Shown piece by piece: positions 1,726 through 50,123 of a DNA stretch of 64,000 bases. Numbering within the stretch: the first letter of the stretch is position 1; the number at the start of each line of letters is the position of its first letter. The notes below the pieces were generated by a model, which was given only the letters and a program-made list of their open reading frames with translations, ran no database searches and had not been told where the DNA came from. The translations under genes were made by a program, and so were the position numbers. The DNA is from a bacterium (lineage in GTDB: Bacteria; UBP14; UBA6098; 4484-93), in NCBI GenBank assembly GCA_021158465.1, contig JAGGUN010000019.1, positions 88,481-152,480 of the forward strand, written 5' to 3'.

Positions 1726-3114
1726 ATGGTCAGAATACTCGTAGTGGACGATGAGGAGAGTATGTGTAAGTTTATGCGGATAATGCTCTCCAAGAGCGGT
1801 TATGAGGTAGCTACTGCCTTATCTGCGAAGGAGGCGCTTGCTCTCCTTGATAAGTCCAGTTTTGATATAGCGATACTGGACATTAAGATGCCTGAGATGT
1901 CCGGGGTTGAGCTCTTGCGAGAGATCCGGAAGAAAAATCAGACGATCAGTGTGATAATGATGACGGCTTATGCCTCACTTGAGACAGCGATCGAGGCTCT
2001 GCGGGAGGGTGCGAGCGACTATATCACCAAGCCGTTCCAGATAAGCGAGATAAGACATTCCATCAAGAGGATCTTGGAGGAGAGGGAACTTCGTGAGGAG
2101 AATGTATTGCTAAGAGAACAGGTGAGTGAGGGCGCATCCATCGACGAGTTTGTCGGGAGTTCCCCAAAGATTCTGGAGATGAAAGAGCTTATCAAGACGA
2201 TAGCACCGACCGATAGCACTGTTCTCATCCTTGGGGAATCAGGCACAGGTAAGGAACTTGTGGCGAGGGCGATCCACCGCCTGAGTGGAAGGGCGGATGC
2301 TCCTTTTATCTCCGTTAACTGTGGTGCCTTGCCGGAGCAATTGCTAGAGAGCGAGCTGTTCGGACATAAGAAAGGGAGCTTCACAGGCGCTGTCAGGGAC
2401 AAAGAAGGGCTTATGAAGGCGGCTGACCGCGGGACATTATTCTTGGATGAAATAGGAGACACATCTATGGCTATCCAGGTAAAGCTTCTGCGAGCAATCG
2501 AGGAGAAAGAGATAATACCGATCGGCTCGACCTCATCTGTGAAGGTGGATGTGAGGATTATAGCAGCAACAAATTCCAACCTCGAGGATATGGTTAGAAA
2601 AGGGGCGTTCCGGGCAGACCTATACTATCGATTAAATGTTTTCCCAATATCCATTCCTCCGCTCCGGGAACGGAGGGAGGATATTATACCGATAGCGGAT
2701 CACTTCTTGAAAAAACTTGTCAACAGGATGAATGACAAAAGAGAGGTGCATTTCTCGGAAACAGCGAAGAAGCTTCTCAAGAAAGCTTACTGGGCTGGAA
2801 ATGTCCGCGAGTTGGAGAATGTTATCGAGAGGGCATACTTTCTGAGCAAGGATGGGGTGATAACCGAAAGGGAGCTTCCTGAGCACATAAGAAAAGGGGA
2901 ACAACCGATCGCCCAGAGGCGGAAACAAAGCCTTGTCGGTGGTATCCTTCCTCTTGAAGAGATAGAAAAGGCTTACATCTTTTACACATTGAACCGGGTT
3001 GGTTGGAAAAAGACGGAGGCGGCGCGAGCGCTCGGTATTGACCCGTCAACACTCTATCGAAAGATTGAAAAATATAAACTTACACCCCAGAAGACCTATG
3101 AGGAAAATCCTTGA
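1726..3114 (+). CDS. NtrC-family sigma-54-dependent response regulator
   Basis: 462 residues with three domains in order. The receiver domain (1-~120) has acidic pocket D8/D9, phospho-acceptor D52 in ILDIKMPEMSG and the lysine of TKPF. The AAA+ sigma-54 activation domain (~145-370) has Walker A GESGTGKE near 170, sigma-54 contact loop GSFTGA near 217 (the canonical motif is GAFTGA) and Walker B LFLDEIGD near 240. A Fis-type helix-turn-helix (~415-455) reads EAARALGIDPSTLYRKI. When phosphorylated, such proteins bind upstream enhancers and remodel RNA polymerase carrying sigma-54. The start ATG follows GAGGGAGAG; an ATG four bases earlier is out of frame. No histidine kinase is visible nearby. 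Two sigma-54 promoters occur in this window (34154-34169 and 36104-36119), and this is the only enhancer-binding protein seen here. Confidence 0.96.
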   Translation: MVRILVVDDEESMCKFMRIMLSKSGYEVATALSAKEALALLDKSSFDIAILDIKMPEMSGVELLREIRKKNQTISVIMMTAYASLETAIEALREGASDYITKPFQISEIRHSIKRILEERELREENVLLREQVSEGASIDEFVGSSPKILEMKELIKTIAPTDSTVLILGESGTGKELVARAIHRLSGRADAPFISVNCGALPEQLLESELFGHKKGSFTGAVRDKEGLMKAADRGTLFLDEIGDTSMAIQVKLLRAIEEKEIIPIGSTSSVKVDVRIIAATNSNLEDMVRKGAFRADLYYRLNVFPISIPPLRERREDIIPIADHFLKKLVNRMNDKREVHFSETAKKLLKKAYWAGNVRELENVIERAYFLSKDGVITERELPEHIRKGEQPIAQRRKQSLVGGILPLEEIEKAYIFYTLNRVGWKKTEAARALGIDPSTLYRKIEKYKLTPQKTYEENP

Positions 3115-29478: not shown

Positions 29479-32157
29479 ATGTGCGGCAGTGGCTCAATGG
29501 ATAGAGCGGCAGATTCCGGATCTGCAGGTTGGAGGTTCAAGTCCTCTCTGCCGCACATCCTTCCCCTTGTTGTTCTCCTTTTCTCTTGCTTTACGGTCTA
29601 TGCCGGCAAACCTGAACCGGGCAAGATCGGTGTCATAGCGTACATCCTACCAAGACCGGACTATGACTCGCTTCAGGGGCAAACCCCATCCCGGATAATA
29701 TCGCATCTTAAGCAACTTGCTTCATCCTCGCAGGCGCAGGTCATCAGCTTCCTCCAGCAAAGAAGTGAAGAGGTTGACACCTTTATCTCCTTATGGACGA
29801 TAAATGCAATATACATTATGACCACACAGGATGTCGTCAGTGCGCTTGCCGAGAGAGAAGATATAGAGAAGATTGTGCCCGACCGTGAGCGGAGGCTTGG
29901 TGAGCCTATCTTGTCTGATGCGAAGGATGCCTGGGACAATATCGGTGCAATCCGGGCTGACGAGGTTCACTCGGAGCTCGGCATCGATGGCACGGGTGTT
30001 ATAATCGGCAGTATGGATTCTGGCGTCGACGGCTTTCATCCGGATCTTGAGGGGAATTTTCTTGGTAATGTCGAGCCTGGAAGGGTTGCTTGGTTTGACC
30101 CGACAGATGAGTACCCGCTCTATCCACAGGACGGACACGGACACGGGACGCATACGATGGGGACGGTCTGTGGACAGGGTGGAACAGGTGTTGCTCCAGG
30201 CGCACTCTGGATGGCGGTGAAGATATTCAGGGACAACTCGACATCGAGGGACTTTATCATACATTCTGGCTTCCAGTTCATCGCTGACCCGGATGACAAC
30301 GCCTATACGGATGATTTCCCGAGGCTTGTTAATAACTCTTGGGGCGAGCTCTTCTGCCGTGAAGGGATGCTATACTACGATGATGTCAGATTGTGGCGGC
30401 TCCTGGGTATAATACCCGTTTTTGCCATTGGGAATGATGGACCGGAGGCATCCTCGACAACTCCTCCAGGGAACTACCCGAATGTCATATCAACAGGAGC
30501 AACGGACGCTTCGAACAACATCGCATATTTCTCAAGCCGTGGACCTGCGCCTTCAGGCTCCCCATGGTTCGGAGCAACAAAACCGGACTTCTCAGCGCCG
30601 GGTGTTGGCATTCTATCAACTGAGGCTGGGACAGGTGGCTACACTCTGATGAGCGGAACGAGCATGGCATCCCCGCATATAGCGGGCACCATCGCACTTA
30701 TGCTTTCTGCCAACCCGACACTCGATTACGATGATGTCTACCGTATCCTGTCGGAAACCTCAGTGGACATAGCCGATCCAGGAATGGATAATATCTCTGG
30801 CTATGGTCTGGTCGATGCGTACCGGGCGGTTCAACTTGCTATAGAAATGCGAGCACCGAGAATATACCATACTCCAATCACTGACAGAGAATCCGCCAAT
30901 GTGACATTTGTGGCAACAGTTGTTTCACCAACATCGCCTCTGGATACATCGTCGGTTGCGCTTATTCTGACATTTAGCGGGATACCAGACACCATCCCGT
31001 TCATACCCTCAGGTGATTCGTTTTTCTGTGAGGTTTCGTTTCCTGGCGAGGGGGATGTCCAGTATTTTATACAGGCAGCAGACTCATTGGGTAGATTGGG
31101 TTGCCTCCCAAAATCTGCTCCTGATTCTGTCTTTTCGTTTCACATTGGAAGAGACTCAATCCCTCCTATCATAGAGTTCACGCCTATAGACTCCGTGCTA
31201 TCCTATCTCATGTTTCCGCAGGACATCTCGGTTGAGGTAAGCGACAACGGGGAGATAGATAGTGTCTGGATTGAGCTGACAGATGAAGCGGGAACGAGAA
31301 GTATCCCTCTCGAGTACGACCCACTGTGGGGGGTATATTCTGGAGAGATTGATTTAGAGCCGATTGGTGAGTTTTTCTACAGGATTGTAGCTATGGACAG
31401 AGCCTCAAATCTGTCCAGCTATCCACCAGATTGGGACAGTCTCCGCGTTGAGGTAGTTGACGATGGCACAATTGATCTTCTGTGGAGCACAGTAACGGAG
31501 ATACCCGATTTTATTCCACCGTATTATGATCAGGAGACATGGAGCGTATTGGAGGTTCCCTGGCACTGTCGGGTCGAGTCAGTAAAAACGAGGGTTCATC
31601 TTACTTATCCGAGGATGAGGAATATTGTGGCTGTACTCTACTCACCATCCGGCACAGAGGTATATCTCCACAACAGGGCATCACTTACCGACAGTGTGAA
31701 CATCTGGTATCCGGACGACAGGAGCGAGGATGGTCCGGGCTCTCTTTCAGATTTTACTTACGAGGATGCAGCGGGTGTATGGTATCTATATGTCGCAGAT
31801 AGAAACGAGATGTATCATGGCTACTATGGGACGCTTTTTGAGTGGGAGCTTATGCTGTTCTGCTCATCTATTGCAGAGGTGGAAGAAAAAAGTGCTCTGC
31901 CTGGGAGGTTTAAGCTTTCCGCCTATCCGAACCCGTTCAATTCGACAACCAAAATTTTATACAGCATACCTGAAACCGAGAAGAAGGCGGTTATTGAAAT
32001 TTACAACATATTGGGAGAAAAGGTAGATAGCTTCTGCGCTGAACCAGGGCTGCACACCATCCTCTGGGATACAAAGAAACTTCCATCGGGAGTCTACCTC
32101 TGCCTGCTGAAGGGGAAGACTACCTCCGCATCTTTGAAGCTCTCACTTTTGAGGTGA
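29479..32157 (+). CDS. subtilisin-like serine protease with T9SS sorting tail; start overlaps tRNA-Arg
   Basis: Up to 892 residues from the ATG at 29479. The S8 catalytic triad is Asp ~180 (GSMDSGVDGFHPDL), His ~222 (GHGHGTHTMGT) and Ser ~395 (MSGTSMASPHIAG), with oxyanion Asn in NNSWG. Ig-like repeats (~460-670), a P-domain-like segment (~690-800) and a Por type A tail (SAYPNPFNSTTKILYS ... YNILGEKVD ... LPSGVYLCLL) follow. The export signal (ILPLVVLLFSCFTVYA) starts right after the tRNA. There is no in-frame ATG, GTG or TTG between the tRNA and the mature enzyme. The possible starts are ATG 29479, four bases before the tRNA, and ATG 29497, inside it. The start is therefore uncertain; the protease itself is not. 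Confidence 0.9.
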   Translation: MCGSGSMDRAADSGSAGWRFKSSLPHILPLVVLLFSCFTVYAGKPEPGKIGVIAYILPRPDYDSLQGQTPSRIISHLKQLASSSQAQVISFLQQRSEEVDTFISLWTINAIYIMTTQDVVSALAEREDIEKIVPDRERRLGEPILSDAKDAWDNIGAIRADEVHSELGIDGTGVIIGSMDSGVDGFHPDLEGNFLGNVEPGRVAWFDPTDEYPLYPQDGHGHGTHTMGTVCGQGGTGVAPGALWMAVKIFRDNSTSRDFIIHSGFQFIADPDDNAYTDDFPRLVNNSWGELFCREGMLYYDDVRLWRLLGIIPVFAIGNDGPEASSTTPPGNYPNVISTGATDASNNIAYFSSRGPAPSGSPWFGATKPDFSAPGVGILSTEAGTGGYTLMSGTSMASPHIAGTIALMLSANPTLDYDDVYRILSETSVDIADPGMDNISGYGLVDAYRAVQLAIEMRAPRIYHTPITDRESANVTFVATVVSPTSPLDTSSVALILTFSGIPDTIPFIPSGDSFFCEVSFPGEGDVQYFIQAADSLGRLGCLPKSAPDSVFSFHIGRDSIPPIIEFTPIDSVLSYLMFPQDISVEVSDNGEIDSVWIELTDEAGTRSIPLEYDPLWGVYSGEIDLEPIGEFFYRIVAMDRASNLSSYPPDWDSLRVEVVDDGTIDLLWSTVTEIPDFIPPYYDQETWSVLEVPWHCRVESVKTRVHLTYPRMRNIVAVLYSPSGTEVYLHNRASLTDSVNIWYPDDRSEDGPGSLSDFTYEDAAGVWYLYVADRNEMYHGYYGTLFEWELMLFCSSIAEVEEKSALPGRFKLSAYPNPFNSTTKILYSIPETEKKAVIEIYNILGEKVDSFCAEPGLHTILWDTKKLPSGVYLCLLKGKTTSASLKLSLLR
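29483..29555 (+). tRNA. tRNA-Arg (anticodon CCG)
   Basis: 73 bases fold into a complete cloverleaf. The acceptor stem pairs GCGGCAG with CTGCCGC. The D arm is GCTC-AATGGATA-GAGC. The anticodon arm is GCAGA-TTCCGGA-TCTGC with anticodon CCG, reading CGG codons. The variable loop is AGGTT. The T arm is GGAGG-TTCAAGT-CCTCT with one G-U pair, and the discriminator is A. The 3' CCA is not encoded and must be added by the CCA enzyme. Confidence 0.95.
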
Positions 32158-32422
32158 CCTTCCTTGTTGTATGTTTCGTTTTCCTTGATGGAACACCCTT
32201 CTTTCTTGTTCTGCTCTTCTTTTCTATGCGGTCGTTTATACCGTTCCTGTCTTTATCGATGAAGTAGTCGAATAACCTGATAGAGGAGCTGGGTTTCTTC
32301 TTTTCGACCTTCTCTTGCTCCACTTCCGTTGTATCCCTGTCGCCTTTTTGCTCGCCCGCCGATGCAGAAGCAAATAATAGCACAAGTGTACTCACCACGA
32401 TCGGTATCAGATACCTTCTCAT
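32120..32422 (-). CDS. small exported basic protein with EF-hand/TSP3-like calcium motif
   Basis: 100 residues, signal peptide MRRYLIPIVVSTLVLLFASASA, good ribosome site (GGAGAGGGAG). The mature part is very charged, with one acidic loop FIDKDRNGINDRIE that resembles the DxDxDGxxD loop of dockerin or thrombospondin type 3 repeats, then a Lys/Arg-rich tail. The last 38 bases overlap the 3' end of the convergent subtilase gene. One base separates it from the upstream Cys/Trp-rich gene, so it is the last gene of that operon. Function unknown; ionic binding to acidic surface polymers is a guess. Confidence 0.65.
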   Translation of the reverse strand: MRRYLIPIVVSTLVLLFASASAGEQKGDRDTTEVEQEKVEKKKPSSSIRLFDYFIDKDRNGINDRIEKKSRTRKKGVPSRKTKHTTRKVTSKVRASKMRR

Positions 32423-32423
32423 C

Positions 32424-33329
32424 TTATCTCCCTCTCCTTATCAGTTTCACACGGGTTGAACTTCCCCGAGCAGCTGTTGCTCTGAAGGAACCTTTGCTTG
32501 AGTATCCTATCGACGACCTCTTGGTGATAGGACCCTTTGAAGGGTTCTTGCTTTTGATCTTGGTGGATTTGACCTCTTTATCATCCTTCCTCAGAAAAAA
32601 CAAATTCTGTCTTCCCTTTTCAGGAATTTTTTTCTCCTTGGAACGCTCCGTCAGGGATTTCTTATTTCTCTCCAAGCCGATTGGTGAGTTTTTTCTCCTT
32701 CTCAGTGTTGTCGAGTTATCCTTTTTATGTTTCTTCCTTGTGCTGTTTTCCGTGGAGGTTTTCTCTATTATCTTCGCTACGCTTCCTGTACTTTTGCTCT
32801 TTGGCAGTATCTTTCTACCACCGACGGCACTGGCGACCTGCGTTACAGAGGAAGCAACCCTGCTTCCTGTATATCTTTTGACTTCGGCACTTCTATATTT
32901 CGCTGGTAAAAGCGATGTCGATTCCCCCGGTTCCCTGAACAGCCCTCTTCTCCTCGTTATCCGGTATCCCGAGGTGGTGTAGCTGCCTCGATATCTGACC
33001 GGAGGTGGTTCATAGTAATAAGGGTAATAAGGATAATAATAGGGTGGGGAAGGGGGAGGCAGGTACCAGAGGAGAACTACCGGATGCCAGAAGCATCGGC
33101 AGTGCCAGCAGTAGGTGTCCAACCACCAATGGTCACAGCAAAGATGCCAACAACAGCAATCATCCCACCACCAGTCACAGCAGCAACAACAGCAGTCGTC
33201 AACAACAATGTCCGGTGGATCGGCAATGACCACACGGGAATGTGTTCTAAGCACTGTTTGGCAGCCGGAAAGTATGAGGGCAAAAACTACTACTGCACCG
33301 ACCGCCATTATACCTTTATAATATCTCAT
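32424..33329 (-). CDS. lipoprotein with extreme Cys/Trp/His-rich segment, Tyr/Pro-rich hinge and basic tail
   Basis: 301 residues from ATG after AGGAGGG. Signal peptide with lipobox ALILSGC (Cys23). Residues 44-82 (33084-33200) hold 14 Cys, 8 Trp, 4 His and 7 Asp in 39 positions, including six Cys in a row and three Trp in a row. A Pro/Tyr segment follows (PPPSPPYYYPYYPYYYEPPP, 91-110), then ~190 residues dominated by Lys, Arg and Ser. Synonymous codons are mixed (TGC/TGT), so this is not a simple DNA repeat. The in-frame signal peptide, lipobox and ribosome site argue for a genuine gene. I recognise no family. Metal binding through thiols and imidazoles, or disulfide cross-linking at the outer membrane, is inference. 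Its start overlaps the FN3 lipoprotein gene by 14 bases. Confidence 0.75.
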   Translation of the reverse strand: MRYYKGIMAVGAVVVFALILSGCQTVLRTHSRVVIADPPDIVVDDCCCCCCDWWWDDCCCWHLCCDHWWLDTYCWHCRCFWHPVVLLWYLPPPSPPYYYPYYPYYYEPPPVRYRGSYTTSGYRITRRRGLFREPGESTSLLPAKYRSAEVKRYTGSRVASSVTQVASAVGGRKILPKSKSTGSVAKIIEKTSTENSTRKKHKKDNSTTLRRRKNSPIGLERNKKSLTERSKEKKIPEKGRQNLFFLRKDDKEVKSTKIKSKNPSKGPITKRSSIGYSSKGSFRATAARGSSTRVKLIRRGR

Positions 33330-34128
33330 TTTTGCCCTCCTTGTTATAAAGCTTTATCCTTTTATTTGTCCTTTCCCTCAGCTCCGGGTTGCCGGTGTCC
33401 GTCTGATAAGCCCACTCGAACTGAACATAATCCGGGGTAACTTCTATTATCCATATCTTGGCAAAATGGTTGTCGCAGGTCCAGATAACATATCCCCAGC
33501 CAGGGTGTATCTCAACCGTTGCCCCAGGTATATACCCATCTTCCGGTGCGTAGTCTATATCCTCGAACGAATATATCTGCCCGTAAACGAGAATATCCGT
33601 CATAGAGTTTGCACCGGAGAGCCAGTACATACCGTCGTAGTTGAAATATATATCAGCAGAGGGGTAATCCCACGGGACGAGCGAATACTCGGAGAAATCA
33701 TACCCCGAATCATCCGGATAACGGTCCGCATCCCAGAGGATCGCAAAACCTTCGGGTCTCGGCGTGTCGAACACGAGGTCATCCGAGAGCTCCGATTCCA
33801 CCCCAGACCACGAGACAGAAGAGACTGCATAATAGTATGTCTTACCGTTTTCGGCAGAGAAATCAATAAAGTAGCTCGACAAGGTCTCACCGATAAGATA
33901 GTAATATCCCGTCTCACTGTACCCGCGATAAACCCGGTAGCTCCAGGCTCCACAGGGGGTCCAGTAAAGATAGACCCGGTTGTCACCCGTCACCGAGTGC
34001 ACATTCGTTGGAACAGGGGGAGGATAATCTCTACGAGCATGATAACAATAATCATCATAAACAACCACATCACACCCGAAGAATGCAAGGAGCGAGAGAA
34101 GAACATCTATGATGACTACCCTCTTCAT
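33316..34128 (-). CDS. lipoprotein with fibronectin type III domain
   Basis: 270 residues, ATG after AGGGGATG. Lipobox LAFFGC. Residues ~40-118 form a fibronectin type III domain (PPVPTNVHSVTGDNRVYLYW ... YRVYRGYSETG ... YYYAVSSVSWSGVESELSD). The C-terminal ~150 residues are an aspartate- and aromatic-rich beta domain ending in a basic stretch; the part HPGWGYVIWTCDNHFAKIWI is typical of FCB FN3 lipoproteins. It is the first gene of the three-gene operon that includes the Cys/Trp-rich lipoprotein, and is read from a well-formed sigma-54 promoter. A surface-exposed binding role is inferred. Confidence 0.8.
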   Translation of the reverse strand: MKRVVIIDVLLSLLAFFGCDVVVYDDYCYHARRDYPPPVPTNVHSVTGDNRVYLYWTPCGAWSYRVYRGYSETGYYYLIGETLSSYFIDFSAENGKTYYYAVSSVSWSGVESELSDDLVFDTPRPEGFAILWDADRYPDDSGYDFSEYSLVPWDYPSADIYFNYDGMYWLSGANSMTDILVYGQIYSFEDIDYAPEDGYIPGATVEIHPGWGYVIWTCDNHFAKIWIIEVTPDYVQFEWAYQTDTGNPELRERTNKRIKLYNKEGKNEIL

Positions 34129-34153: not shown

Positions 34154-34169
34154 AGCAAATAATATGCCA
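34154..34169 (-). promoter_or_regulatory. sigma-54 (-24/-12) promoter of the FN3 / Cys-Trp-rich lipoprotein operon
   Basis: Minus strand reads TGGCAT-ATTAT-TTGCT, matching the consensus TGGCAC-N5-TTGCW with one change. The invariant GG (34168-34167) and GC (34156-34155) are ten bases apart. Transcription would start near 34143, leaving a 15-base leader that holds exactly the AGGGGATG ribosome site before the ATG at 34128. Confidence 0.75.
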
Positions 34170-34193: not shown

Positions 34194-34292
34194 ATCGGTT
34201 ACGCGAGAAAACGAGGGAAAATATTCCACGAAATTGCACATTTCTCGTGCAATGAGAGCAGCAATTTTGTGCAAAACCGGTTGCGCAAGAAG
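34194..34292. repeat. pair of 17-bp imperfect direct repeats flanking the enhancer sites
   Basis: ATCGGTTACGCGAGAAA (34194-34210) and ACCGGTTGCGCAAGAAG (34276-34292) match at 13 of 17 positions and are 82 bp apart. The second covers the -35 box of the queD promoter. Possible operator pair; the role is unknown. Confidence 0.35.
34233..34274. promoter_or_regulatory. NtrC-like enhancer (upstream activating) sites
   Basis: A perfect dyad TTGCAC-ATTTCTC-GTGCAA (34234-34252, extendable to ATTGCAC/GTGCAAT) has the half-sites and 7-base spacing of the enteric NtrC operator. A second, degenerate copy (GAGCAG-N7-GTGCAA, 34256-34274) lies 22 bp further, two helical turns away. Their centres are about 100 and 122 bp upstream of the predicted sigma-54 start at 34143, a normal enhancer distance. 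The perfect dyad would also form an RNA hairpin, but it lies outside the predicted queD transcript. Confidence 0.55.
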
Positions 34293-34309: not shown

Positions 34310-34344
34310 TAAAACGGCAGGATGTAAAAATTAAGGAGGGGGAA

Positions 34345-34710
34345 ATTTATCTTTTAACGGCAAAAGGTGGTTTCTCTGCTGCACATTGGGTAAGAGGGTA
34401 CCCGGGGAAATGCTCTCACCTACACGGACATAACTGGCAGGTTCAGCTAACCGTTAGGGTAGATGAGCTGGATTCACTCGGTATGGGGATCGACTTCTCC
34501 GAGCTAAAGGGCATCCTGAAGGAGATAACCGACCTTTTAGACCACACCTGCTTGAACGAGCTTCCGTTTTTTTCGGAGACGAACCCGACAGCCGAGAACA
34601 TCGCAAGGTTTCTATTCTACGAGGCAAAAAAGAGGCTCCCAAATGGTGTTAAACCCTATGAGCTGAAGCTCTGCGAGAGCGATAACAGCTGGATAACATA
34701 CAGGGAGTAA
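34345..34710 (+). CDS. queD: 6-carboxytetrahydropterin synthase, ATT start codon
   Basis: 121 residues, the same length as E. coli QueD, if translation starts at ATT 34345. The ATT lies five bases after AAGGAGG, and the product begins YLLTAKGGFSAAHWVRG. No ATG, GTG or TTG occurs in frame upstream of 34483, and starting there would delete the zinc site. Key residues are all present: the zinc histidines in FSAAHW and HLHGHNW, the catalytic Cys in GKCSHLHGH, the Asp/His pair in LLDHTCLNE, and the C-terminal Glu in KLCESDNSW. It makes 6-carboxytetrahydropterin from dihydroneopterin triphosphate in queuosine synthesis. Its stop overlaps the queE start as TAATG. Confidence 0.9.
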   Translation: MYLLTAKGGFSAAHWVRGYPGKCSHLHGHNWQVQLTVRVDELDSLGMGIDFSELKGILKEITDLLDHTCLNELPFFSETNPTAENIARFLFYEAKKRLPNGVKPYELKLCESDNSWITYRE

Positions 34711-35348
34711 TGCTCATAAGCGAGATTTACAAGAGTATAAACGGTGAGGGAAGGTTCGCAGGCTTTCCAACCTCGATTGTGAGAGTAGCAGGTTGCAATC
34801 TTAGATGTTCCTGGTGCGATACAACCTATGCCTTAACAGGTGGAGAAAGGGTTTCTCTCGATGAAATAATGAGCAAGATACGGGAGTTCAACACCCGTCG
34901 TGTTCTCATAACCGGTGGTGAGCCTCTTCTACAAGAGGAAACCTATGAACTTGCAATGAGGCTACTTAAGGCAGGCTACCACACGCTTGTTGAGACAAAC
35001 GGCTCGCTTCCGATAAACACACTCACCGAGGGGATTTTCCGGTGCGTCGATATAAAGACACCGTCATCGGGCGAGTCTGGAAAGAATCTGCTCGAGAATA
35101 TAGAGTACCTCCTCCGTACCGACGATGTGAAGTTTGTTATAGCAGATAAGCACGATTTTGACTGGAGCCTCGATTTTACAAGAAGTTTCGACCTTACATC
35201 GAGGTGTGATGTACTCTTTTCTCCTGTCTGGGGCAAGCTCTCTCCTGATGTACTTGCCAGATGGATACTTGACTCCGGTATGGACATAAGGTTAAACCTC
35301 CAACTCCACAAACTCATCTGGAAGGACAGGGAGGAGGGGATAAGGTGA
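34710..35348 (+). CDS. queE: 7-carboxy-7-deazaguanine synthase (radical SAM)
   Basis: 212 residues. Starts LISEIYKSINGEGRFAGFP, the QueE signature, followed by the radical-SAM cluster motif CNLRCSWC (CxxxCxxC, ~29-36) with DTTYAL, then VLITGGEPLLQ (SAM binding) and LVETNGSLP. It converts 6-carboxytetrahydropterin to 7-carboxy-7-deazaguanine with a 4Fe-4S cluster and SAM. One-base overlap with queD and four-base overlap with queC. Confidence 0.96.
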   Translation: MLISEIYKSINGEGRFAGFPTSIVRVAGCNLRCSWCDTTYALTGGERVSLDEIMSKIREFNTRRVLITGGEPLLQEETYELAMRLLKAGYHTLVETNGSLPINTLTEGIFRCVDIKTPSSGESGKNLLENIEYLLRTDDVKFVIADKHDFDWSLDFTRSFDLTSRCDVLFSPVWGKLSPDVLARWILDSGMDIRLNLQLHKLIWKDREEGIR

Positions 35349-35992
35349 AGGCTATTATTCTTCTTTCTGGTGGGCTGGACAGCACAACGACGCTTGCTGT
35401 CGCAATTGACAGAGGATTCGAGATACTGCCGCTGCACTTAAACTATCGACACCGAGCGGAAAAGAAGGAGCTTGAGGCTTTCGATGCAATCCTCAACCAC
35501 TACGGCATAGAAAGAAGGCTCGTCGTGGAGCTACCTTTCTTTTCCCGGTTTGAAAAGAGGGGGCTTGTCAACCCGGAGCTTGACCTGTCGGCTGAAAGCT
35601 ATAACGATTCTCGCCTCTCATACCTCCCGTTCCGGAACGGTGTGATGCTCGCCATAGCTACAGCTGTTGCCGAGGAGGAAGAAGCGGAGGCAATATTTAC
35701 AGGTGTTATGGAGGAGGATTCGTCCGGCTACCCCGACTGCCGTGAGAAGTTTATTCAAGACTTCCAGAAAGCGATAAGCTCAGGAACAAAAAAGGGAAAC
35801 ATAACGGTTATAACCCCTATCATTCACATGAAGAAGAGCGAGGTGGTGCTTCTGGGTAAAAGACTTGGTGTCCCGTTTCATCTTACCTGGTCCTGCTATG
35901 AGGGTGGTGAAAGCCCCTGTGGAAGGTGTGCAAGCTGTCTTCTGAGAAGGTCTGCATTTGAAGAGGCTGGCGTGAATGACCCGCTCATTTAA
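35345..35992 (+). CDS. queC: 7-cyano-7-deazaguanine synthase
   Basis: 215 residues, start GTG in a GTGA overlap with queE. PP-loop ATPase motif ILLSGGLDSTT (~5-15), then YLPFRNGVMLAIATAVAEE, DEDSSGYPDCREKF-type EEDSSGYPDCREKFI, and the zinc site WSCYEGGESPCGRCASCLLR with four cysteines. It uses ATP and ammonia to make preQ0 from 7-carboxy-7-deazaguanine. preQ0 feeds queuosine in tRNA or 7-deazaguanine DNA modification; queF and tgt are not in the window. Confidence 0.96.
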   Translation: MKAIILLSGGLDSTTTLAVAIDRGFEILPLHLNYRHRAEKKELEAFDAILNHYGIERRLVVELPFFSRFEKRGLVNPELDLSAESYNDSRLSYLPFRNGVMLAIATAVAEEEEAEAIFTGVMEEDSSGYPDCREKFIQDFQKAISSGTKKGNITVITPIIHMKKSEVVLLGKRLGVPFHLTWSCYEGGESPCGRCASCLLRRSAFEEAGVNDPLI

Positions 35993-48432: not shown

Positions 48433-49464
48433 ATGTTCAGGTTCGCGAACCAAGAGATGCTTTATCTACTTGTGCTGGTGGTGTGTTTGCCTTTTCTGTT
48501 TCACATCTTCGACAGACATGCGAAAAGGCTCCTTGAACGGTTCGCTACTGGCAAGGCACTATCGGTTATTATCGACAGCGTTAACTGGAGGTCGAGGAGA
48601 ATAAAGCGGGTCCTCTTTACTGTGGGTCTTTTCTTCCTTGTTCTCGCTCTTGCTCGCCCACAGTTCGGGACAAAGATCGAGGAGGTGAAGCGAAAGGGAA
48701 TGAACCTTATCGTTGTGCTCGATGTCTCGAACTCGATGCTGGCGGAGGATGTCAAACCGAACAGACTAACCCGCTCCAAGATGGAGGTCTCAAGCATAAT
48801 AGACAAGCTCAAGGGAGATAGGATCGGTATTGTTCTGTTTGCAGGCGAGGCTTTCCCTTATTGCCCTCTGACGCTTGACTATGAGGCTGCCAAGATGTTG
48901 CTTGCTGGGGCAGACACAAGAAGCATCTCTGCTCAGGGAACGAACATAGCAGCAGGCATCAACAAGGCAATTGAGATGTTCCCGAAACGAGAAAAGAAAC
49001 ATCTTGCTATCCTTGTGATAACCGACGGCGAGAATCTGGAGGGTGACCCCGAGGAGGCTGCGAAGCGCGCCGCAGAACAAGGTGTAAAGATATTCACCGT
49101 CGGGATAGGTTCACCTGCCGGTGAGCCTATACCTATCTGGAGTAAGGACGGTAAGAAGATCGGCTACAAGCGGGACGAGAACGGTAGCATCGTTACATCC
49201 AAGCTGGACGAGACGACCCTGCAGAAGATTGCTCTCATCACCGACGGAAAGTACTATCGAGCAAGCCCAGGACAGGCTGAGCTGGACAAAATCTTCTCCG
49301 AGATAGAGAAGATAGAAACAGAAGAATTTGCATCGAAGAAGTTCACAACCTATGAGGACAGATATAGGTATCCTCTCACATTAAGCGGGCTACTTCTGCT
49401 CGCAAGTTTCCTGTTGAACGACAGAAAAAGAAGGAGAAAACAGTGGACTGGAGAGCAGTTTTAG
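48433..49464 (+). CDS. batB: BatB-like VWA domain membrane protein
   Basis: 343 residues, ribosome site GGGAGGA. Same layout as BatA: helices at ~8-25 and ~58-75, VWA domain with IVVLDVSNSMLAEDV, DTRSISAQGTNIAAGI and LVITDGENLEGD, and a C-terminal helix (TLSGLLLLASFLL) with a basic end. Its 3' end overlaps batC by 22 bases. Forms a pair with BatA. Confidence 0.93.
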   Translation: MFRFANQEMLYLLVLVVCLPFLFHIFDRHAKRLLERFATGKALSVIIDSVNWRSRRIKRVLFTVGLFFLVLALARPQFGTKIEEVKRKGMNLIVVLDVSNSMLAEDVKPNRLTRSKMEVSSIIDKLKGDRIGIVLFAGEAFPYCPLTLDYEAAKMLLAGADTRSISAQGTNIAAGINKAIEMFPKREKKHLAILVITDGENLEGDPEEAAKRAAEQGVKIFTVGIGSPAGEPIPIWSKDGKKIGYKRDENGSIVTSKLDETTLQKIALITDGKYYRASPGQAELDKIFSEIEKIETEEFASKKFTTYEDRYRYPLTLSGLLLLASFLLNDRKRRRKQWTGEQF

Positions 49465-50123
49465 CGGTTGCTCTTCTTCTTTGCCCGTTTTATGCTCTTT
49501 ATGCCGATTCTCCGAGAAAAACAAACGAGGATGGAATAGAACTTTACAAGCAGGAAAGGTTTGACGAAGCTCTTGAACGGTTCCGTTCAGCTCAGCTGGA
49601 CAAGCCAGAAAGCCCCATACTCCACCATAATGTTGGCGTCTCACTGTATAAGATGAAAAAGTATGACAAAGCAATAGAGGAGCTCAGCAAAGCTATACCT
49701 GAGGCGAAAGACTCTTTACTTACCTCAAAGATCTACTATAATATAGGAAACTGCTATTTCAAGATGGACAGCCTTATGAACAGCATATTCTTCTATCAGC
49801 AAGCACTGAAACTGAACCCGAATGACGAGGACGCAAAATATAACCTTGAACTTGCGCTGTCACTTCTGAAGCAGAGCTCCAAAAAGAAGCAGATACAAGG
49901 TCAGCAACAACAACAGCAACAACAGCAGCAACAACAGCAACAACAGCAACAACAGCAGCAAGGGCAAAAGGGACAGCAGGGAGAACAGGAGAAAAAAGAG
50001 GGCGAGATATCAAGGGAGGAGGCAGAGCGGATCCTTGACGCCCTGGAAGAGCAGGAAAAAGAGACGCAAAAGGAACAGGTAAGGCAACTCCCGGGGAGAG
50101 GGATACCTGGTAAGGACTGGTAA
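49443..50123 (+). CDS. batC: BatC-like TPR protein with polyglutamine tract
   Basis: 226 residues, start GTG after GAAGGAG. Signal peptide (WRAVLAVALLLCPFYALYA), three TPR repeats (~30-135: GIELYKQERFDEALERFRSA, HNVGVSLYKMKKYDKAIEEL, YYNIGNCYFKMDSLMNSIFFY), then a run of 20 Gln (~154-173) and an acidic Glu/Gln/Lys tail ending GRGIPGKDW. BatC proteins commonly have TPRs plus a disordered Q/E-rich end. It should be periplasmic, binding BatB or BatD. Confidence 0.9.
   Translation: MDWRAVLAVALLLCPFYALYADSPRKTNEDGIELYKQERFDEALERFRSAQLDKPESPILHHNVGVSLYKMKKYDKAIEELSKAIPEAKDSLLTSKIYYNIGNCYFKMDSLMNSIFFYQQALKLNPNDEDAKYNLELALSLLKQSSKKKQIQGQQQQQQQQQQQQQQQQQQQQGQKGQQGEQEKKEGEISREEAERILDALEEQEKETQKEQVRQLPGRGIPGKDW
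49902..49961 (+). repeat. CAA/CAG trinucleotide tract encoding 20 glutamines
   Basis: Sixty bases of mixed CAG and CAA codons. The codon order is partly periodic (CAACAACAG triplets), so slippage could change its length in frame without breaking batC. Confidence 0.9.

Follow-up and report, generated by a model that had tools for sequence, protein, structure and literature searches.

A 39-residue segment in which cysteine and tryptophan are extraordinarily dense, encoded on the minus strand of the window (the whole 64,000-nucleotide stretch of bacterial DNA that was analysed), is, judging from sequence comparison, a real part of a gene and under strong purifying selection. It represents the most extreme version of a two-block protein design seen across the class of the source bacterium. 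The gene belongs to an operon in which an FN3/HmuY-fold lipoprotein is followed by the two-block protein, in some lineages by a DUF4384 protein, and then by a small EF-hand-like basic protein. The features of this operon in the window are as follows.

34234..34252, minus strand: palindrome TTGCAC-gagaaat-GTGCAA, probable enhancer (UAS) for an NtrC-type activator
34154..34169, minus strand: predicted sigma-54 promoter TGGCATATTATTTGCT (-24/-12), TGGCAT-N5-TTGCT, 42 bases before the start of the FN3 lipoprotein
33316..34128, minus strand: FN3 lipoprotein, 270 aa, with lipobox, short Cys/Tyr/Asp linker, FN3 domain and HmuY-like beta domain
32424..33329, minus strand: aromatic/Cys-rich lipoprotein ORF, 301 aa, second gene of the operon
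33084..33200, minus strand: residues 44-82 of the 301-aa lipoprotein, with 14 Cys, 8 Trp, 4 His and 7 Asp
32427..32954, minus strand: RRRGL motif and basic tail of the same protein (residues 126-301), with 51 Lys plus Arg, 13 Asp plus Glu, no Cys and no Trp
32120..32422, minus strand: small basic secreted protein, 100 aa, with one EF-hand-like loop FDYFIDKDRNGINDRIE

The 301-residue lipoprotein and its gene

A recount of residues 44-82 (DDCCCCCCDWWWDDCCCWHLCCDHWWLDTYCWHCRCFWH) agrees with the 14 Cys, 8 Trp, 4 His and seven Asp that an earlier, sequence-only reading had reported. Against a background of 0.92 % Cys, calculated over the 53 long non-overlapping ORFs of the window, the binomial probability of at least 14 Cys in 39 residues is 4e-19, and the runner-up 39-residue stretch of the window contains 6 Cys plus Trp, compared with 22 here. 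The limits of the 39-residue segment are nevertheless arbitrary, as conservation extends over some 100 residues, a block that in this protein spans residues 23-125 and contains no Lys at all. The basic tail that follows is predicted to be disordered. In an AlphaFold2 model built from a 14-sequence alignment (pLDDT 48), only the signal helix is folded and the remainder of the protein is likewise predicted as disordered.

The lipobox (LSGC) and ribosome site (AGGAGGGC) that had been claimed for the gene are both present, the start of the gene overlaps the 3' end of the FN3 lipoprotein gene, and the gene for the 100-residue basic protein lies directly downstream. Consistent with the claim that no known family has such a composition, the protein matches none in Pfam or NCBIfam, and a Pfam search with the three operon proteins of the window returned no family above the cut-off. 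A weak Pfam match to POP1_C and a match of the class profile to the mitoribosomal protein mL77 (E 4e-4) were set aside, both falling in the low-complexity basic tail.

The small basic gene overlaps tail to tail by 38 bases (32120-32157) with a subtilisin-like gene on the plus strand, the product of which carries a type-IX-like C-terminal domain. A tRNA-Arg (CCG) gene at 29483-29556 is located inside the start of this subtilisin-like ORF (29479-32157), the listed start of which is therefore too early. On the other side, queD, queE and queC-like genes (34339-35992) are divergent from the operon.

Selection on the reading frame

The ortholog in a second genome of the same genus (69 % identity) keeps the gene order and an open frame, and its insertions and deletions are in-frame. 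Comparison of the two genes by codon-wise substitution counts yields dN/dS values of 0.086 for residues 44-82 and 0.074 for residues 24-90, at a dS of about 0.9-1 in the segment, while the values are 0.29 for the whole protein, 0.42 for the tail (residues 136-301) and 0.14 for the FN3 lipoprotein. The changes within the segment comprise three C-to-Y, one W-to-Y, one H-to-Y and one L-to-W replacements and two in-frame indels.

These values bear on the possibility that the frame is spurious, or a sequencing artefact, and that the Gln-rich ORF antisense to it (33115-33321, plus strand) is the true gene. A precedent for such an artefact exists in the window itself, since a poly-Gln tract at 49901-49960, within a TPR protein (49443-50123, plus strand), reads as a comparable run of Cys on its opposite strand, and that run is spurious. 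The segment at 33084-33200 could have been an artefact of this type but is not: the operon, the ribosome site, the ortholog and the selection all agree with the minus-strand frame, as the earlier reading had anticipated in judging a spurious frame unlikely, and the probability left for an artefact is negligible. Frameshifted homologs, or selection on another frame, had been named as grounds for doubt. The dN/dS values and the in-frame indels on the minus strand indicate instead that the antisense ORF is not the selected frame.

The same comparison weighs against a non-adaptive origin, in which slippage between TGY and TGG codons would have expanded Cys and Trp in a functionless spacer behind the lipobox. 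The codons of the two residues are indeed one step apart, and the FN3 partner likewise has a Cys/Asp/Tyr linker behind its lipobox. However, strong constraint at a dS near 1 is not expected of a functionless linker; the codons of the segment are mixed, as had been claimed, no tandem repeat was found in the Cys run, and the composition is kept in every family. This explanation, already contradicted by the selection test, is left with a very small probability.

The two-block protein across the class

Direct homolog searches with the 301-aa lipoprotein reach only the genus, and single-protein scans of genome contigs, viral contigs and plasmids found no relative, because the family diverges too fast; it could be reached only through synteny with the FN3 gene. 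The FN3 lipoprotein itself was matched in 41 of 117 genomes, the weaker matches covering the FN3 domain only, and its orthologs occur in nearly all class members and in many other phyla. In every class member with a readable region, the next gene encodes a two-block secreted protein.

The architecture was compared in 14 class members and eight proteins of WOR-3. In the class, the first block extends for about 100 residues after the signal, consists of 32-42 % C+W+Y, 7-12 % Asp, 6-14 % Arg and 0-1 % Lys, and ends at an RR-x-G motif. The second block (85-204 residues) is rich in Lys, Arg and Ser, has no Cys (with one exception) and contains at most one Trp. The first block therefore has almost no Lys, and the second hardly any Cys or Trp. 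Some members have a lipobox, as the window protein does, and others an ordinary signal peptide, as seen by sequence inspection.

The number of Cys per protein ranges from 7 to 15, with mixed parity. A check for homologs with conserved Cys positions gave a divided answer, as the Cys columns align inside families (e.g. SPCG and PCxxC in one of them) but not between families. Since one ortholog may have Tyr where another has Cys, Trp or His, it is the chemistry rather than the position of these residues that appears to be kept.

The FN3/HmuY-fold partner

The structure model of the FN3 lipoprotein (pLDDT 82) contains an FN3 domain (Z 14) and a second beta domain, residues 124-245 of the model, which superimposes on PinO (6r2h) with Z 12.3 over 115 aligned residues at 2.6 Å rmsd. 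On this model, the second domain shares the HmuY fold. The Pfam HmuY profile left the window protein unmatched and was matched weakly by two of 21 homologs (best E 0.0022), and a profile search of the domain against PDB sequences returned nothing significant, so that the link to HmuY comes from the structure together with the weak Pfam matches. No invariant His or Met column was found in the FN3 lipoprotein family, in which one His column is present in 17 of 21 sequences; heme ligands are poorly conserved within the HmuY family itself (PMC8911585).

Equivalent operons in other phyla

When the FN3 alignment was used to scan named genomes, it identified 80 loci, which belong to WOR-3/Stahlbacteria, Zixibacteria, Hydrothermota, Calditrichaeota, Ignavibacteria, Poribacteria and other phyla. 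The gene after FN3 in most WOR-3, Zixibacteria, Hydrothermota and Calditrichaeota loci specifies a secreted product that combines an aromatic-rich portion with a basic tail. The WOR-3 second gene product is a Trp/Tyr-rich two-block protein with 43-47 % C+W+Y and 0-1 % Lys in its first block; its Cys content is only 3-8 %, with far more Tyr and Trp in the first block. A separate DUF4384-like gene follows this second gene in WOR-3, and one family of the window's class (f2) also has a separate DUF4384-like gene. Among 26 proteins of equivalent operons elsewhere, Pfam identified DUF4384 in 14, PEGA in seven, and DUF6600 and FecR in four.

When the class protein was compared with the WOR-3 second gene product using hhalign, only the signal peptides aligned, and the trimmed blocks reached a probability of 0.2 %. 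The second genes of the class and those of WOR-3, Zixibacteria and Hydrothermota are therefore described here as position-equivalent: they agree in position, in composition and design, and in promoter, whereas sequence homology was not detected by hhalign. CxxCH motifs, of the heme c attachment type, occur in second-gene proteins at L034, L035, L096 and half of the WOR-3 loci, and are broken in close relatives (four of eight WOR-3 proteins).

The small EF-hand-like protein (YDYFxDxDxNGIDDR) is encoded in all families of the class and in 24 of 35 module loci outside it, but in none of the 30 Ignavibacteria-type loci. In the latter, the next genes are different, encoding a 145-aa protein and a kinase-like protein of roughly 1275 aa, and the FN3/HmuY-fold gene often has a sigma-54 promoter and no palindrome (L057, L061, L064 and others). 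The Ignavibacteria-type organization is another undescribed gene arrangement.

Sigma-54 promoter, palindrome and regulators

The sigma-54 promoter that the earlier reading had placed before the operon is found at 34169-34154 on the minus strand and is conserved in module loci. Across 62 module-type upstream regions, TGGCAY-N5-TTGCW is perfect in 23 (0.02 expected) and matched at 10 or more of 11 positions in 48 (0.49 expected). The palindrome GCAC-N7-GTGC, in its usual form TTGCACAAnnnTTGTGCAA, is exact in 36 of the 62 (0.29 expected) and lies mostly 75-90 bp upstream of the -24 element, whereas it is present in none of 32 Ignavibacteria-type regions, many of which keep the sigma-54 site. The expectations were derived from single-base shuffles, and because the loci are related, these counts are not independent events. 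The combination of strict-consensus palindrome and promoter with a spacing of 50-80 bp occurs once each, at the operon, in four genomes (G000, G001, G003 and G005); a strict search of seven other class genomes gave no match, as their sites deviate from the strict consensus. The palindrome is probably an enhancer-like site of the kind bound by NtrC-type activators. In all, the neighbours to which the earlier reading had pointed (FN3 lipoprotein, small basic protein and sigma-54 promoter) proved to be conserved.

The source genome carries rpoN (contig C49) and nine NtrC-type AAA activators. No kinase or activator gene was found beside the operon in the window; the NtrC-type response regulator gene at window positions 1726-3111, one of the nine, has no evidence for control of the operon. 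Elsewhere, the FN3 gene is preceded at two loci (L053 and L054) by a sensor kinase gene together with that of an NtrC-type regulator, and at L101 by a regulator gene. The C-terminal part of these regulators includes the helix IHRNTLR and most resembles the activator G000:C11:79849 of the source genome, which has no adjoining kinase gene. This C-terminal (recognition-helix) similarity is the one indication that the orphan regulator possibly controls the operon. Large genes for sigma-54 activators (about 1020-1030 aa) are located upstream of the FN3 gene at two further loci (L085:3956-7045 and L114:3965-7021). Sigma-54 has been widely tied to exterior functions (PMC3162934).

Possible functions

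The reading tentatively preferred here, to which we give somewhat less than an even chance, is that the 301-aa lipoprotein is an inducible envelope coat protein composed of an aromatic/Arg 'sticker' block and a polycationic anchor. A two-component system (sensor kinase and NtrC-type regulator, possibly the orphan on contig C11 in the source genome) would switch the operon on when it perceives a signal at the envelope or cell surface. The FN3 lipoprotein would serve as a surface platform, and the 301-aa lipoprotein may be lipid-anchored in the outer membrane, a membrane supported by the presence of the marker Omp85 in the genome. The Lys-free block of Cys, Trp, Tyr, Arg and Asp would act as a low-complexity 'sticker' that self-associates or packs against partner proteins, while LPS, polysaccharide or nucleic acid, as anionic polymers of the cell surface, would be held by the long polycationic tail, and calcium-dependent bridging could come from the small EF-hand-like protein. 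Together, the operon proteins would build up a coat or adhesive layer of the envelope on induction, in which Cys would offer a bonus of soft-metal binding or occasional cross-links rather than the defining function.

The density of thiols had originally been taken to suggest metal binding. In its developed form, this explanation holds that the Cys/His/Asp segment binds Zn, Cu, Fe or heme and exchanges it with the HmuY-fold domain in a sigma-54 stress system resembling ZraPSR. It draws on the 14 Cys and 4 His within 39 residues, on the HmuY-like fold of the partner and the weak Pfam HmuY matches of a few homologs, on the CxxCH motifs of some position-equivalent proteins (those at L034, L035, L096 and in half of the WOR-3 set), and on ZraR/ZraP, a sigma-54 envelope system that is activated by zinc (PMC7657598). 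DsbB and VKOR were sought in the genome (97.6 % complete) and neither was found. Other oxidation routes may exist, but without these two enzymes catalysed disulfides become less likely, and the thiols could stay reduced and be available to bind metal. Nevertheless, the number and positions of Cys differ between families, Cys is replaced by Tyr in the ortholog, Cys amounts to only 3-8 % in WOR-3, the FN3 lipoprotein family has no invariant His or Met column, and CxxCH is broken in half of the eight WOR-3 proteins. Given the unconserved Cys and the Cys/Tyr swaps, a site dedicated to metal is not the most convincing interpretation, and metal binding as the defining function is not supported; we regard this explanation as possible but less likely than the inducible coat. 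The oxidase result also bears on a cross-linked structural coat, in which disulfides of Cys and dityrosines of Tyr would fix the protein in an insoluble layer of the envelope. The high density of Cys and Tyr and the basic, Ser-rich tail would suit such a layer, although neither oxidase was detected and the Cys content is not kept in position-equivalent proteins, which makes a coat of this kind improbable. As chemistry and layout are conserved and Cys positions are not, the 'sticker' block of the inducible envelope coat fits better than a dedicated metal site.

A broader proposal would be that the operon represents an undescribed, inducible surface-assembly system of several candidate phyla. 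Under a two-component switch of the sigma-54/NtrC type, the FN3/HmuY-fold lipoprotein, the 'sticker' lipoprotein and the calcium-loop polycation would be deployed to build a condensate-type coat on the outer membrane. In this full form the proposal is distinctly doubtful. The narrower suggestion made from the sequence, that the system is undescribed, agrees with the open-access literature searched, in which no description of the operon was found.

The lone curiosity thus becomes a testable operon, with a promoter and an enhancer-like site, three or four proteins, and a distribution over several phyla without laboratory models. If the inducible coat is true, the operon would provide a first handle on surface remodelling in uncultured bacteria; if metal or heme handling is true, the role of the HmuY fold would extend well outside Bacteroidota. 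The palindrome and gene order offer a means to find and annotate proteins now labelled 'hypothetical'.

Comparison with known systems

The HmuY family (HmuY, PinO, Tfo and Bvu) has its fold in common with the C-terminal domain of the FN3 lipoprotein, and both are lipoproteins. The FN3 lipoprotein differs in the FN3 domain in front, in not matching Pfam HmuY, in having no invariant His/Met ligand pair, and in an operon that, in the window, contains no TonB receptor gene. Proteins with DUF4384, PEGA or DUF6600 domains take the second or third place in equivalent operons elsewhere and have aromatic-rich stretches and basic tails, whereas the class protein has no such domain according to Pfam. The combination of a Cys/Tyr-rich block with a tail rich in Ser, Arg and Lys may also resemble that of spore-coat proteins and the Cys-rich envelope proteins of chlamydiae; however, no sequence link to these proteins was found, the cell is Gram-negative, and a disulfide oxidase was not detected.

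The enterobacterial ZraPSR (HydHG) system is alike in that an NtrC-type regulator and sigma-54 govern a very small set of genes for envelope proteins, and its adjacency of kinase and regulator to the target is matched in some phyla, though not in the source genome. A ZraP-type periplasmic chaperone was sought by Pfam in the three window proteins, with no family above the cut-off; instead of a ZraP homolog, the operon encodes three or four unrelated lipoproteins or secreted proteins. The two-block protein and the small EF-hand-like protein match no Pfam family above the cut-off, while the regulatory kind, in which sigma-54 and an NtrC-type activator drive an envelope output, is already known (PMC3162934; ZraPSR, PMC7657598).
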